Of a stretch of DNA of 64,000 nt, positions 7,392-45,424 are shown in pieces. This stretch comes from Allomyces arbusculus (lineage: Eukaryota; Blastocladiomycota; Blastocladiomycetes; Blastocladiales; Blastocladiaceae): the NCBI GenBank assembly GCA_027604705.1, contig JADHYV010000023.1:248001-312000 (forward strand), given 5' to 3'. The translations under genes and the position numbers were made by a program. The number at the start of each line of letters is the position of its first letter. The first letter of the stretch is position 1. The notes under the pieces are model-generated. The model did no database searches. It had not been told where the DNA came from and was given only the letters and a program-made list of their open reading frames with translations.

Positions 7392-10280
7392 CTACTGGTA
7401 AACCTTCTCAATCTCGGCCTTGAAGTGGGCCAGAATGTCGCGCCGCTTCAGCTTCATGGCCGCCGTGAGCATACCCGACTCGGGCGTCCACTCCTCGTCA
7501 GCAAGCACGACGGCCTGCACGACCTCGGCATGTGCGAGCTTGTTGGCCTTGGCCACGTTCTTGAGCTCGGCCAAGATCGCATCGCGGATCTCTTCATTGT
7601 GGCACAACTGCTCCCACGAGTCAAACTGGATGCCGCGCTTGCGCGCCTCCGCCTCGATGGCCGCCGGCAACGGCTGAACAATGGCGACCGGGTAGTAACG
7701 GTACGAGTCGGCGCTGGAAGTGAGGAAGGAGATAATGTCAGTTTGCGCGCGTTCTGATCAACGGCATGCGGTTCAGAGGAGCGAGCAGCACGTACAACAA
7801 GCAAATCTTGCCGACAAACTTGCACCCGGCGTAGATCGACTCGAGCTTCTCGAGAGCAACGTACTCGCCGTTGGCGAGCTTGACGAGATTCTTGCGGCGA
7901 TCCACAATCGACACGGTACTATTCGGTTCGGGTTCATGCATGAGTCGACGCCAGCGCAGCCCTGCTTTGACCCGTGCCCGTTTGAAAAATCGTCGTACCC
8001 GTCCGCGTTGAGCCGGCCAACGTCGCCCGTCTTGAGCCACCCGTCGTCAGTGAACGCATCACGCGTTTCCTCGACGCGCTTGAAGTAGCCCTTGGTCACG
8101 GACGGACCGCGCACCCAGATCCTGGATACGAAAAAAAGGGGGAGGAGGGGGGGGGGGGGGGGTGAGCGACGGCCAAACGAGTCTGCGACTGACAAATGTG
8201 GAGACACACGTACTCGCCGAGCGGCGGCTGGCCGGGAACGCGCGATTTGTAATCCATTTCGGGTACGTCGACAAACTTGAGTTCCAGGCACCCAACAGGC
8301 GCACCGACCTGCTTAGTCGCAAAACCCCTGTTGTAGGTGGTGTAGAGGCACGCCATGGCCGAGCCCTCGGTCCTAGATGGGTCAAAAATCATGGTCAGCA
8401 AACGAATCCACAGTGTTTGCGTCCACGAATCGCGCCCCACGTACATGCCGTAGCCCTGCACAATCGGGCACAGGATCGTCGACAAAAACTGCTGCGTGTC
8501 CTCAGAGATCGGTGCGCCGCCCGAGAGCGCAATCTTCAAGCACCCACCCGTCTGGTCCTTGATCTTGTTGAAGACGACCGTGTCGGCGAGCCACGCGAGA
8601 CCCAGCGGCAAGCTCGTCGAGTTGGCAAACGCCTTGACCTTGTACATGGCCCAAAACAGGTTTTGCACAAACGGGCTCATGGTCGCGACTTTGGCGAGAA
8701 TGCCCTTCTTGATCGTGTCCCAAACGGCCGGCACGCCCGCCATGATCGTGGGCTTGAGCTCGCGGATATCGCCGAGGCAGTTGCGCACCGACGCGTCCGT
8801 GAGCGTGCGCGGCGACCCGTACCCGAGAATGATGCCCTTGAGCAAGCAGTAACTTTCGACGACGAATTCGAGCACATGCGACAACGGGAGCATGGCAAGG
8901 TACCGGTCCTAGAAGGTATGGAGCCAGAAAGCGTGAATGGACGTTTGCGAATGGGCGCGCTGCAATAGCGAACACGCACCCCAAAGTTGAGGAGCCCGGG
9001 AATGACCCCATCCACACCAGCCATCGCCGCGATAATGTTAGCGTGCGTCAGGACGACACCCTTGGGGTTCCCCGTCGACCCGGACGTGTACCTACGTGTC
9101 GCAACACCGCGTGAGTCCACGCTGCGCAAATCCCGTCTCGAATAGCGCGAACGTACATGATGCAGCAGAGATCATCCTTGCTCGGCGGGTGCATTTCGCA
9201 CGGGTGCAGCTTACCGCGTGCCTTGAGATCGTCGTACGAGAGAATCGTCAGCCGGCCCTCGCCCGCCGCCGCGGCCAAGTCGGCGAGCGCCTTCGGCTTC
9301 GCCTCGCCCTTGTAGACGACATGGCGCACGGTCGAATTTTGGCCAATGACCTTGGTCAAGGTCGGGAAGAGATCGACGTGCGTGAAAACGAGCGGGATTT
9401 CGGGTTCGTTGAGCGCCCAGAGCAGACCCTCGGGGCCAAGTGTCTATAATAGCAACATATCAGGTTAAGACTTGTTGCAACGGCGATCCGGAGCGGAGAA
9501 ATAGGCAAGTCGACGTACGTCGTAGGCGGTGGTAATGGCCATCGATTGGGCAAAACAACCGTGCGCGAACATTTGCCACTCGGGACTGCAAGCGACCCCA
9601 AACGGTTAGTTCGCGCGTCCCACACGTCAACGCTTCGAATATTTCAGCGAGACGGGCGCACGCACCTCGTCGGCAAGTAAAGGCACGCCTTGTCGCCGGC
9701 CGTGTACCCCAAGTTGGCGAGCCCGCCGGCGACGAGCTTGATGTCGGCGAGCAGCTCCTTGTACGAAATCCACTGGTAGGGCCCGAGCTCAAAGTACTTC
9801 CACAGCTTGGTCTCCTTTGTTTCGTGCCCGTTCACAATCCTGGTAATCTCTTTGGATTCCTCGATGACGCGAATCACTTTGCGGTGGCCCATGGCGGGTG
9901 CATCGCCAAAGACGCGCGCAGATCGCATCACGACGTCGTGCACCGTCTGTGTGCACGTGAATCAGAAAGGTTGAGCTTACGACCACCCTCAAACGCGTGT
10001 GATCGGACAAAACCAGGGTACGGGACACGCACCAGGACATCGGGCTCGGGCGTGTGCAGCAGCGCGTGCTCGGCGACCTTGTGCCGGAACCGGTTCGACT
10101 GCTCGACGCCATCAGCGAGCTCGCGGGGCTCGGGCAGCTCGACGGTGCACGTAGATGCGCCAGGTTTCTAAGACACAGCAGAAATGCGCAGGCGATCTGC
10201 CCATTCAGTCGTGCGGTTCTCAGTTCCGGCCAGGTGCCGAGGTACGTGCGTGAACAGACCAGGTAGAAATCGGTGCTCAT
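7392..10280 (-). CDS. Long-chain acyl-CoA synthetase, tandem copy 2
   Basis: Eleven exons (minus): 10260-10280, 10033-10167, 9666-9946, 9519-9585, 9157-9443, 8980-9091, 8445-8908, 8214-8372, 7999-8121, 7796-7918, 7392-7713. Together they encode 697 residues. The AMP-binding motif [46 protein letters not shown] and the terminal EKVYQ match copy 1. All ten introns sit at the same codon and phase as in copy 1, and nine of the eleven exons are identical in length; only the first exon and the ninth differ. The duplication is therefore DNA-based and predates intron change. Intron 8 (8122-8213) carries a long G homopolymer. Biochemical role as for copy 1: ATP-dependent activation of long-chain fatty acids to acyl-CoA. 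Division of labour between the copies cannot be read from the sequence. Confidence 0.93.
8137..8162. repeat. G-rich homopolymer tract in an intron
   Basis: An A-run is followed by a broken and then continuous run of G ending at the GGTGAGC near 8162. It lies entirely within intron 8 of acyl-CoA synthetase copy 2. On the transcribed strand it is a C tract, close to the CAG acceptor side. Homopolymers this long are prone to length error in sequencing. Confidence 0.85.
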
Positions 10281-42191: not shown

Positions 42192-43409
42192 GATGTTGCC
42201 GGTCTGGTGGTGATTGTTGTTGCCGTCGCGTCGCGCAGCTCCTGGCGCGCCGATTCAGCGACCGGTCCAAACGGGTTCAGGTGCTGCCGAGGGTGTGCGC
42301 TTGCTTAGCGTCAAAATTCGGCGTTGATTACAGGCGTTCGCTGATGGGGCTCTTCAGAAGAGGCCGCGGTCGTTGACAAGCATTTCCAGCCATCGTTCAC
42401 GTCGTACAACCCGCGACGAGCAGGCGCCGAGGATGGTTCGGCAACGATAACACGTCCATGATCGGAGCATGCGGTCCTGACGGCCTTGGCGCAGGTCCTC
42501 ATGTGGTCGACCCAAGGAACGCACCAGCCGGCGTGAAGAACAGCGCTGCAACAAGGCGAAAAGGCGGGGCATGCGGGAAACGCGGTCACGTTTCCAATGT
42601 CATGGACGCCAGTTACTCGATCTGGGCTTTGCCCTAACCCTTTTCGCCTCTTGTTGCTGAGGCTTTCGCAGGCTTTCGCACGGCTTTCGCACGGCTTTCG
42701 CAGGCTTTCGCACGGCTTTCGCACGGCTTTCGCTGCTTTTCGCTGTCATGTGCACATTCTCTTCATTGTCGTCGCTTCTTTGATCACCTCCACCTCACGC
42801 TTCGCCTCGTCTCTCGCTCGCGCGCGCAACGCCTAGCATGCACCAAATGACCCGCGCACAAACGAGCGCAAGGGAACCCATGGTCGCCGTCGCCACCCAC
42901 GCATGCGGCGACAAGCAATAATCGTATCATGCGCACGGATAATTATTTCGACGTTTGACGACGTTGACGTTGACCGGGTCCACAGAGGTTCATTTTGCCT
43001 CTGATCGTATCCTCGCCGTCCCCGCGCGTATAAAGACCGACAACAACCCCCAACTCCGCTCTTGCCTTCTTAAGTGCAAATCTGAAGCCCGTTGTGGTCA
43101 TTCTGTCCTCCTTTACCCCCGCTCGATTCCTCCTTGTATGTGTGACTGCCGCCTTCCCTGTTCGGTTCCCCGACCCTCGACGACGCACCTGTCCGCCACG
43201 TCCGTAAGGTCCTTCGTTCGACAAACGCTTGACCTCGGATTGGCTCGTAATGACCAAGGACGAAGCCGTTGCTCTGCGGCCCAATGTGCTCTGCGACCGG
43301 CACGCGACATCACACGAACCAGTATGGATGAGCAGTCGATATTGACGCGCTGGTTTGTTCGTTTCCCGACTTGTCACCAGTACTATCGAATCAATCAACC
43401 GCGAGCACC
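42192..43409. promoter_or_regulatory. Divergent region between the Fuzzy-like and transporter genes
   Basis: This 1.2 kb region lies between start codons pointing apart. It contains the minisatellite at 42661-42733. No gene was found: frames with repeated KPCES-type peptides come from the minisatellite. Both promoters should lie at its ends. Confidence 0.45.
42661..42733. repeat. Minisatellite, 10-11 bp unit GGCTTTCGCA(C), about 7 copies
   Basis: Seven near-perfect tandem copies of GGCTTTCGCAC, or the 10-bp form lacking the last C, lie in a row. The two lengths alternate in the order 10,11,11,10,11,11,10, which itself suggests a higher-order 32-bp unit. Confidence 0.9.
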
Positions 43410-45424
43410 ATGTCATCCTTCGTCAAGGATTTGTTCCTGACGAAGTCATTTGCCGTCCTGCGGCAAGATGCGAACGTTTCGGCAATGCGCCGCACGCTGA
43501 CAGCCAAGGATGTCATCCTCATCGGCGTCGGCGACATTATTGGCGCCGGTATTTTCGTGATTACGGGCAAGGCGGCCGCTCTGGTACAATTTACTTGCTG
43601 TAGCGACACCGAACCATCGAGAGCCCATCGTGACCCGCCTCCAAACTTGTATTTTCTAGTACGCCGGTCCCGCTATCGTGCTCAGTTTCGTGATCAGCGG
43701 TATTGCCTGTGTTTTCGCGGGTCTGGCTTACAGTGAGATGGCTGCTCTTGGTACGGCTGTTTCTCGCTCGCCGTCTCGACGCGTGAACTCGTGCTCACCG
43801 TTTCTTTCTTGTCTCTTTGTACAGTGGTACGCGCACGGCGATACTGGGGCAAATTTTTGCCCTACATGTTCCAGATTTTGACGCCTGGCGTTTTCGTTTT
43901 CGTAGCCGATTTCGGGTTCGGCCTACACGTACACCTACGCGACTATGGGCGAGGTACTGGCGTTTATCATTGGCTGGGATCTGTGCCTCGAATACCTTGC
44001 TGGTTCGTTTTCAAATTGCCGTTCCTCGCCCGCGTCGTCTCCACCCGCTCACTCTCCGAACTTCTCTTCTGTTCAGGTGCCGCGTCAGTCGCTGTCGGGT
44101 GGAGTGCCTACCTGATCTCGTTTGCCAAGTACCTCGGCGCCCAAATTCCGAACACGCTCGTGAGCGCGCCCGTCGCGTACCATTCCGACAAAGGCTTCTT
44201 TGTCGACGACTCGTGCGGCGTGATCAACCTGCCAGCGTTCCTGATCGTGCTCGCCCTGACCGTGGTCCTTTGCGTTGGCATCAAGCAGTCGGCGTGGGTG
44301 AACCACATGTTTGTCGGCATTAAGCTCGTCGTGATTCTGATGTTCTTGTTCGCCACGTTCGGCTCGATCAACCCGGACAACTGGTCTCCGTTCATCCCCG
44401 AGCCGCACAACGACCACTCGTACGGTTTCTCGGGCGTGCTGCGCGCCTCAACGCTCGTCTTCTTTGCCTACATTGGTTTCGATGCTGTCTCGACGTGCGC
44501 GCAGGAGGTCAAGCGCCCGGCGCGCGACATGCCGATCGGCATCCTCGGGTCGCTCGGCGTCTGCACCGTGCTCTACATTCTTGTGTCGCTCAACCTGACG
44601 GGTATTGCGCACTACGAGACGCTCAACTCGGCTGCTCCGCTCGCTGATGCGGTCAAGAATCTGGGCATGGGGTGGCTGAAGGTACGATTGAGCGCCGATC
44701 GGTCCGGCGGACCCGCCGTCACCCGCCATCACTCACCCCTCACTTCTCATAGATTGCTGTGAGCGTCGGGGGCATAGCTGGCCTTAGTTCCGTGATGTTA
44801 GTGTCCCTGATGGCGCAGGCTCGCGTTTTTTCCGCTATGGCGGCGGACGGGTACGTGTCAAGGACGTTGCTCCACTTTGAGTCGGTCGTTTCCCATCCGG
44901 TTGCTTCCCAGCATTACTCTGACAAATTTCACCCTTCTCCACCGTTGATTAGTCTTCTTCCGGCCTCGCTCGGCAAGATTCATCCGCGTTTTGGCACGCC
45001 GTTCGTTCCGACCATCATTTCGGGAACGACATGCGCGGTTGCCGCTGGTTTCTTGCCGCTCGACGTGCTCGGCGACATGACGAGTGCCGGCACGCTCTTT
45101 GCCTTCACGCTCGTGTCGATTTCCGTCGGCGTTCTGCGGTACACGCAGCCCGAACTCGAGCGTCCGTTCAAGGTGCCCGGCGGCCCAATTCTCGTGCCGT
45201 TCCTGGGCGCGGCGTGCGCGATCACGCTGATTGTCACGACCGGCTGGTCGACGGTCCTGCGTCTTGTGATTTGGATGGCGATTGGCCTGATCGTCTATGC
45301 CGGGTACGGGTATCGCCACTCGCGTCTGCGCAACGGCCACGGCATCCCGCTCGACGATAAGAGCGGCGTCGAGCTGTCGCAGACGGCGCTCATTGAGGAG
45401 AAGGGCCACGAGCACGCGTCGTAA
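43410..45424 (+). CDS. Cationic amino-acid transporter-type permease (APC superfamily) with a 2-nt microexon
   Basis: Seven exons: 43410-43583, 43660-43750, 43825-43826, 43906-44002, 44077-44681, 44753-44850, 44953-45424, encoding 512 residues. The order is that of APC/CAT transporters: [91 protein letters not shown] and [15 protein letters not shown], then [17 protein letters not shown], with about 12-14 hydrophobic helices. It probably imports basic or other amino acids at the plasma or vacuolar membrane. Between exons 2 and 4 the phase only works if TG at 43825-43826 is an exon: it lies between ACAG and GTACGC, and joining gives AALVPISGSAY. The intron 44851-44952 is 102 nt and open in frame, so its retention would only insert 34 residues. 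Confidence 0.88.

Follow-up and report, generated by a model that had tools for sequence, protein, structure and literature searches.

The gene studied here lies on the forward strand of the window, the 64,000-nucleotide stretch of DNA that was analysed (C23:248001-312000), and the genome that we examined comprises 25.9 Mb in 197 contigs. The closest match of its 512-residue product is AMAG_10313 (P0001) of Allomyces macrogynus, with 96% identity over the full length. The product scored 176 bits against the Pfam model AA_permease_2, 130.3 against AA_permease and 40.5 against AA_permease_C (cut-offs 27, 24.6 and 27, respectively), and it is a predicted amino-acid transporter of the APC superfamily, cationic (CAT) type. 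The exons and introns are given in Table 1. About 700 bases upstream of the start codon, tandem-like GGCTTTCGCA / CGGCTTTCGCA units occupy positions 42661-42735 of the window.

Table 1. Layout of the transporter gene (positions in the window)
Feature	Position	Strand	Basis or detail
Transporter gene (whole)	43410-45424	+	512-residue product
Coding exon 1, start codon to GKAAAL	43410-43583	+	Spliced alignment to A. macrogynus AMAG_10313 protein (P0001)
Intron 1, 76 nt, phase 0	43584-43659	+	Spliced alignment
Coding exon 2, closing in phase 1 on the first base (G) of the valine codon	43660-43750	+	Spliced alignment
Intron 5' of the putative microexon, 74 nt, GTACGG...GTACAG, donor 9.5 bits, acceptor 11.5 bits	43751-43824	+	
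Branch-point-like CTCAC in the upstream intron, its A 27 nt from the 3'-terminal base	43794-43798	+	Motif only
Putative 2-nt microexon TG, supplying the second and third bases of the GTG codon for Val89	43825-43826	+	Spliced alignment
Intron 3' of the putative microexon, 79 nt, GTACGC...TCGTAG, donor 11.0 bits, acceptor 5.7 bits	43827-43905	+	
Branch-point-like TTGAC in the downstream intron, its A 24 nt from the 3'-terminal base	43878-43882	+	Motif only
Coding exon following the microexon, opens with PISGSAY, phase 0	43906-44002	+	Spliced alignment
Intron, 74 nt	44003-44076	+	Spliced alignment
Coding exon	44077-44681	+	Spliced alignment
Intron, 71 nt	44682-44752	+	Spliced alignment
Coding exon	44753-44850	+	Spliced alignment
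Intron, 102 nt	44851-44952	+	Spliced alignment
Final coding exon, including the stop codon	44953-45424	+	Spliced alignment

The ORFs of exon 2 (from 43660) and of the exon that opens at 43906 lie in one frame of the genome, so removal of the 155 nt between the two exons shifts the frame. Exon 2 closes with CTTG (43750) ahead of a consensus donor and has one codon base left over, and when 43750 was joined straight to 43906, the first stop appeared at codon 203. Within this spacer, TG at 43825-43826 sits between TTTCTTTCTTGTCTCTTTGTACAG and GTACGC. Adding these two bases between 43750 and 43906 gives GTG (valine) from G and TG and restores AALVPISGSAY, which is also how the A. macrogynus orthologue protein reads. 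We found that spliced alignment chose the TG exon using GT/AG rules alone, with all sites weighted equally, and that no other AG...GT exon in the spacer restores the frame while leaving at least 40 nt on each side. The alignment result depends on P0001, because this predicted protein, which served as the template, already has the valine; the paralogues and the wider family described below do not depend on P0001.

Next to the frame, we considered the strength of the splice sites. The scoring matrices were derived from 20 reference introns, few in number and drawn from six related genes (four of the six introns of the transporter gene and 16 introns of five paralogues), and the intron pair at the microexon was left out of them. 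The reference introns are 64-102 nt long (median 79.5), and in leave-one-out scoring their acceptors ranged from 1.9 to 13.4 bits and their donors from 4.2 to 14.1 bits. At 11.5 bits for the acceptor and 11.0 bits for the donor, the sites that flank TG fall in the upper part of this range, and the acceptor of the downstream intron is merely middling (5.7 bits). Both introns next to TG carry a YTNAC motif near their 3' ends, so that their candidate branch points are recognised from the motif alone; other introns can be without it, as intron 1 of the gene lacks one in the corresponding region. These results bear out the initial annotation, which had described the exon ending at 43750 as out of phase with the next conserved exon (phase 1 against phase 0 at 43906), had placed a TG exon with a good acceptor and donor at exactly 43825-43826 as restoring AALVPISGSAY, and had called introns of 74 and 79 nt normal here.

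We then compared the region with its relatives. The close paralogues are two genes in L024, two in L025 and one in L026; C17, C6, C49 and C12:435879 were left out of the comparison as too distant or partial. In four of the five, identity to Allomyces proteins is 95-97%, and in the fifth 55%, so the DNA comes from an Allomyces or a near relative. In all five, the codon before the conserved proline is uninterrupted and encodes valine (four genes) or isoleucine (one gene). In an alignment of the 120 homologues listed (of 8,000 that were scored), the 14-residue segment that begins at Glu84 and ends at residue 97 contains no indel in any of the 120, and residue 89 is isoleucine in 102 of them, valine in 15, leucine in two and alanine in one. 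This constancy of length counts against models that drop or add residues in the segment. The reading frame, the splice signals, the paralogue sequences and the conservation of the family, along with the spliced alignment, all support a 2-nt exon as the best model of the gene, as the initial annotation had put forward. Judged from genomic sequence, Val89 is very probably split, with G ending exon 2, TG forming an exon of its own and Pro90 following, between two ordinary short introns, and the RNA would be spliced through the 2-nt exon.

If the exon is real, its inclusion is expected to be constitutive, because an early stop arises in all four mis-spliced forms that we tested: at codon 203 when the exon is skipped, 159 when the first intron is retained, 230 when the second is retained and 132 when both are. 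The same early stops would also suit a variant of this model in which the exon is real and alternatively used, so that skipping (stop at codon 203) yields a degraded message and acts as a switch of transporter level. Three of the four splice sites are strong, which suggests constitutive use, and we regard this variant as unlikely; regulated skipping is possible but unsupported.

A reading that we consider still less likely, indeed improbable, is an error of assembly or sequencing. A single intron of about 155 nt would then separate the exons, two bases would be missing from an adjoining exon, and the inner AG-TG-GT would be coincidental. Two missing bases would indeed repair the phase, and the bare pattern also arises by chance. 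Among 20,000 dinucleotide shuffles of the 155-nt spacer, a frame-restoring AG-NN-GT was present in 2,386, the valine-giving AG-T-N-GT in 829, and any frame-restoring AG...GT exon of up to 30 nt in 11,084. Requiring at least 4 bits of both sites reduced the counts to 109 for 2-nt exons and 787 for exons of up to 30 nt; when each site had to come within about 3 bits of its observed score, 3 and 44 were left, respectively. The bare AG-NN-GT pattern is unremarkable, and it is the strength of its splice sites that distinguishes the microexon. An error would also leave an intron longer than every one of the 20 reference introns (maximum 102 nt).

The genome gave a similar picture. In 264 kb searched on both strands, the microexon is the only acceptor-donor pair of such strength at any spacing from 0 to 30, which again argues against coincidence. 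When no more than the lax level of 4 bits was asked of each site, 10 pairs, including the target, had spacing 2, the most among the 31 spacings (0-8 pairs at every other), so weaker AG-NN-GT look-alikes exist. The string TTTGTACAG-NN-GTACG, allowing at most one mismatch, occurs three times in the whole genome, and without mismatch only at the microexon; it is not enriched as such, because its reversed control occurs 10 times.

Two other readings place the splice junction elsewhere, and both appear very remote. In the first, a donor-split, stwintron-like nesting, removal of the first intron would leave CTT|GTGGTACGC... to serve as the external donor, giving AALPISGS without the valine. This would keep the frame, and donor-split twin introns are known in fungi (accessible parts of PMC12403724 and PMC5639578). 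We rejected it, as no consensus external donor exists once the internal intron is gone: GTGGTA scores -3.8 bits, against 11.0 bits for the microexon donor. In addition, the product would lose a residue position present in all 120 aligned homologues listed, and of its three Pfam scores two are lower, by 0.4 and 7.7 bits, and one is unchanged. In the second reading, one intron would use another in-frame donor, at 43759 or a GC donor at 43756, and insert residues before PISGS. These donors gave the best alternatives to the microexon in spliced alignment. When the microexon sites were forbidden, the best alignment scored 2522.8, against 2565.8 with them, and added two residues through a -2.8-bit donor (43759); when GC donors were also permitted, it scored 2528.7 and added one residue, the GC donor having -5.9 bits. 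Both insertions fall in the segment whose length is invariant in the 120 listed homologues. Like other candidate microexons within the spacer, these donors were scored and discarded.

Returning to the 2-nt exon, a mechanism can be proposed that needs only ordinary introns. Two complete spliceosomal introns, of 74 and 79 nt, would lie 2 nt apart, and each has a full set of signals of its own (donor, branch-point-like motif and acceptor). In fungi, short introns are generally believed to be recognised as units, their splice sites being paired across the intron, and lengths of 64-102 nt fall in the range to which this applies. Each of the two would be recognised across itself, and they would most likely be removed one after the other, because the factors at the acceptor and at a donor 2 nt downstream could hardly fit together. 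Either order of removal would be feasible on paper, since GTG precedes the second donor whether the first intron is present or gone. With recognition across the intron, the size of the exon should matter little. The earlier suggestion that an exon this small challenges exon-definition models was therefore overstated, as reference introns here are 64-102 nt long and exon definition is not required for a pair of neighbouring short introns.

We also considered how the intron pair arose. None of the six introns of the transporter gene matches any intron of the five paralogues in position and phase, indicating that intron turnover in the family is high and that the pair at Val89 is particular to this copy. 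Contig C12 carries five paralogous transporter genes, two neighbouring pairs and a single one; the four paired genes have introns in common, and the fifth shares none with them. On this comparison, the pair around Val89 would have been either gained in this copy or lost elsewhere, and an origin within the lineage of this gene seems to fit. It is probable, in our judgement, that the structure is a natural constitutive 2-nt exon of a blastocladialean fungus, produced by two unrelated introns that landed 2 nt apart at one codon. If so, intron turnover itself builds near-minimal exons.

Other sources of the pair were tried and rejected. Tandem duplication of one intron was not borne out, the similarity of the two introns (-2.0) being close to the shuffle mean (-1.3, s.d. 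3.8). For repeat-borne (introner-like) introns, a genome search with positions 43600-44100 gave no match beyond the locus other than a coding stretch, which occurred at two places. Orthologous DNA was also sought in viral contigs, where one scan gave none.

Exons smaller than a codon have been described before. According to the accessible parts of PMC12940212, CYP621A of Fusarium has a 1-nt exon, present in 20 Fusarium orthologues and covered by RNA reads in two species, and its authors describe no earlier fungal gene as having one, terming theirs the first; they also cite exons measuring 2-5 bp from Arabidopsis, Drosophila and humans. As far as that account goes, CYP621A resembles the transporter in being a fungal nuclear gene with a sub-codon exon in a conserved motif and neighbours that clash in phase, and the argument likewise takes an intronless family member as its yardstick (PMC12940212). 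They differ in that the Fusarium exon is 1 nt long and backed by RNA, whereas the putative transporter exon is 2 nt long and predicted from genomic sequence. The exons of 2-5 bp belong to the same size class as that of the transporter but to other kingdoms.

In plants, the portions available of PMC4674806 describe a 1-nt exon in Arabidopsis APC11, within a 422-nt spacer, proven by cDNA and a reporter. When the single base was made two, both were found in the cDNA, which shows that Arabidopsis can splice a 2-nt exon; rice mis-spliced that version (PMC4674806). Another 1-nt exon is that of plant VPS55 (PMC8831610, as far as seen). The APC11 and VPS55 exons, like that of the transporter, are sub-codon exons between GT-AG introns, and some relatives are without these introns; unlike the fungal transporter, they belong to plants. 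A Trichoderma microexon is described in the accessible text of PMC11121469. The donor-split stwintrons of Ascomycota, from the parts of those reports at hand, resemble the transporter pair as two fungal introns removed in succession; in a stwintron, however, a splice signal of the outer intron is interrupted by the internal one, whereas in the transporter two coding bases part two complete introns.

The literature searched, with most subscription journals beyond reach, contained no natural 2-nt fungal exon, and the accessible portions of PMC13149111 and PMC8042270 contain nothing on 2-nt exons. As natural 1-nt exons have been published, one of them fungal, a 2-nt exon in the transporter would be a rare but not unprecedented gene structure. 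Should RNA confirm it, sub-codon exons would extend to an early-diverging fungal lineage, and the case would suggest that an exon of 2 nt can result when introns are gained next to each other. The transporter also offers a clean test of short-intron splicing with an acceptor and a donor 2 nt apart. Gene callers may overlook such exons and report frameshifts instead, and RNA-seq aligners also tend to pass over them.

A search for further microexons in the 264-kb sample, using AG-N(1,2,4,5)-GT with both scores at least 4 bits, gave 18 sites including the target, which alone also has an upstream donor and a downstream acceptor of at least 5 bits each. In two others, the upstream donor is good and the downstream acceptor weaker but still inside the reference range. 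One, AG-AATGC-GT near L042 5746 on the reverse strand, was rejected as a 5-nt exon, because one ordinary intron joins the flanking reading frames, which we take to be cyclin-like, in phase. The other, AG-GACCG-GT at window position 8908 on the reverse strand, has an acceptor of 8.2 bits, a donor of 5.3 bits and an upstream donor of 9.4 bits, and could be a 5-nt exon or merely coding sequence.

A predicted protein of Catenaria anguillulae (P0011) has IFRFDGRVPRWCRNC where its relatives read IIGWDLMLEYLVGAAT, as if out of frame, which may reflect another mis-modelled small exon or a sequence error. The published A. macrogynus protein P0008 is without eight residues in the FIPEPHNG region, and the second L024 paralogue encodes these residues uninterrupted.
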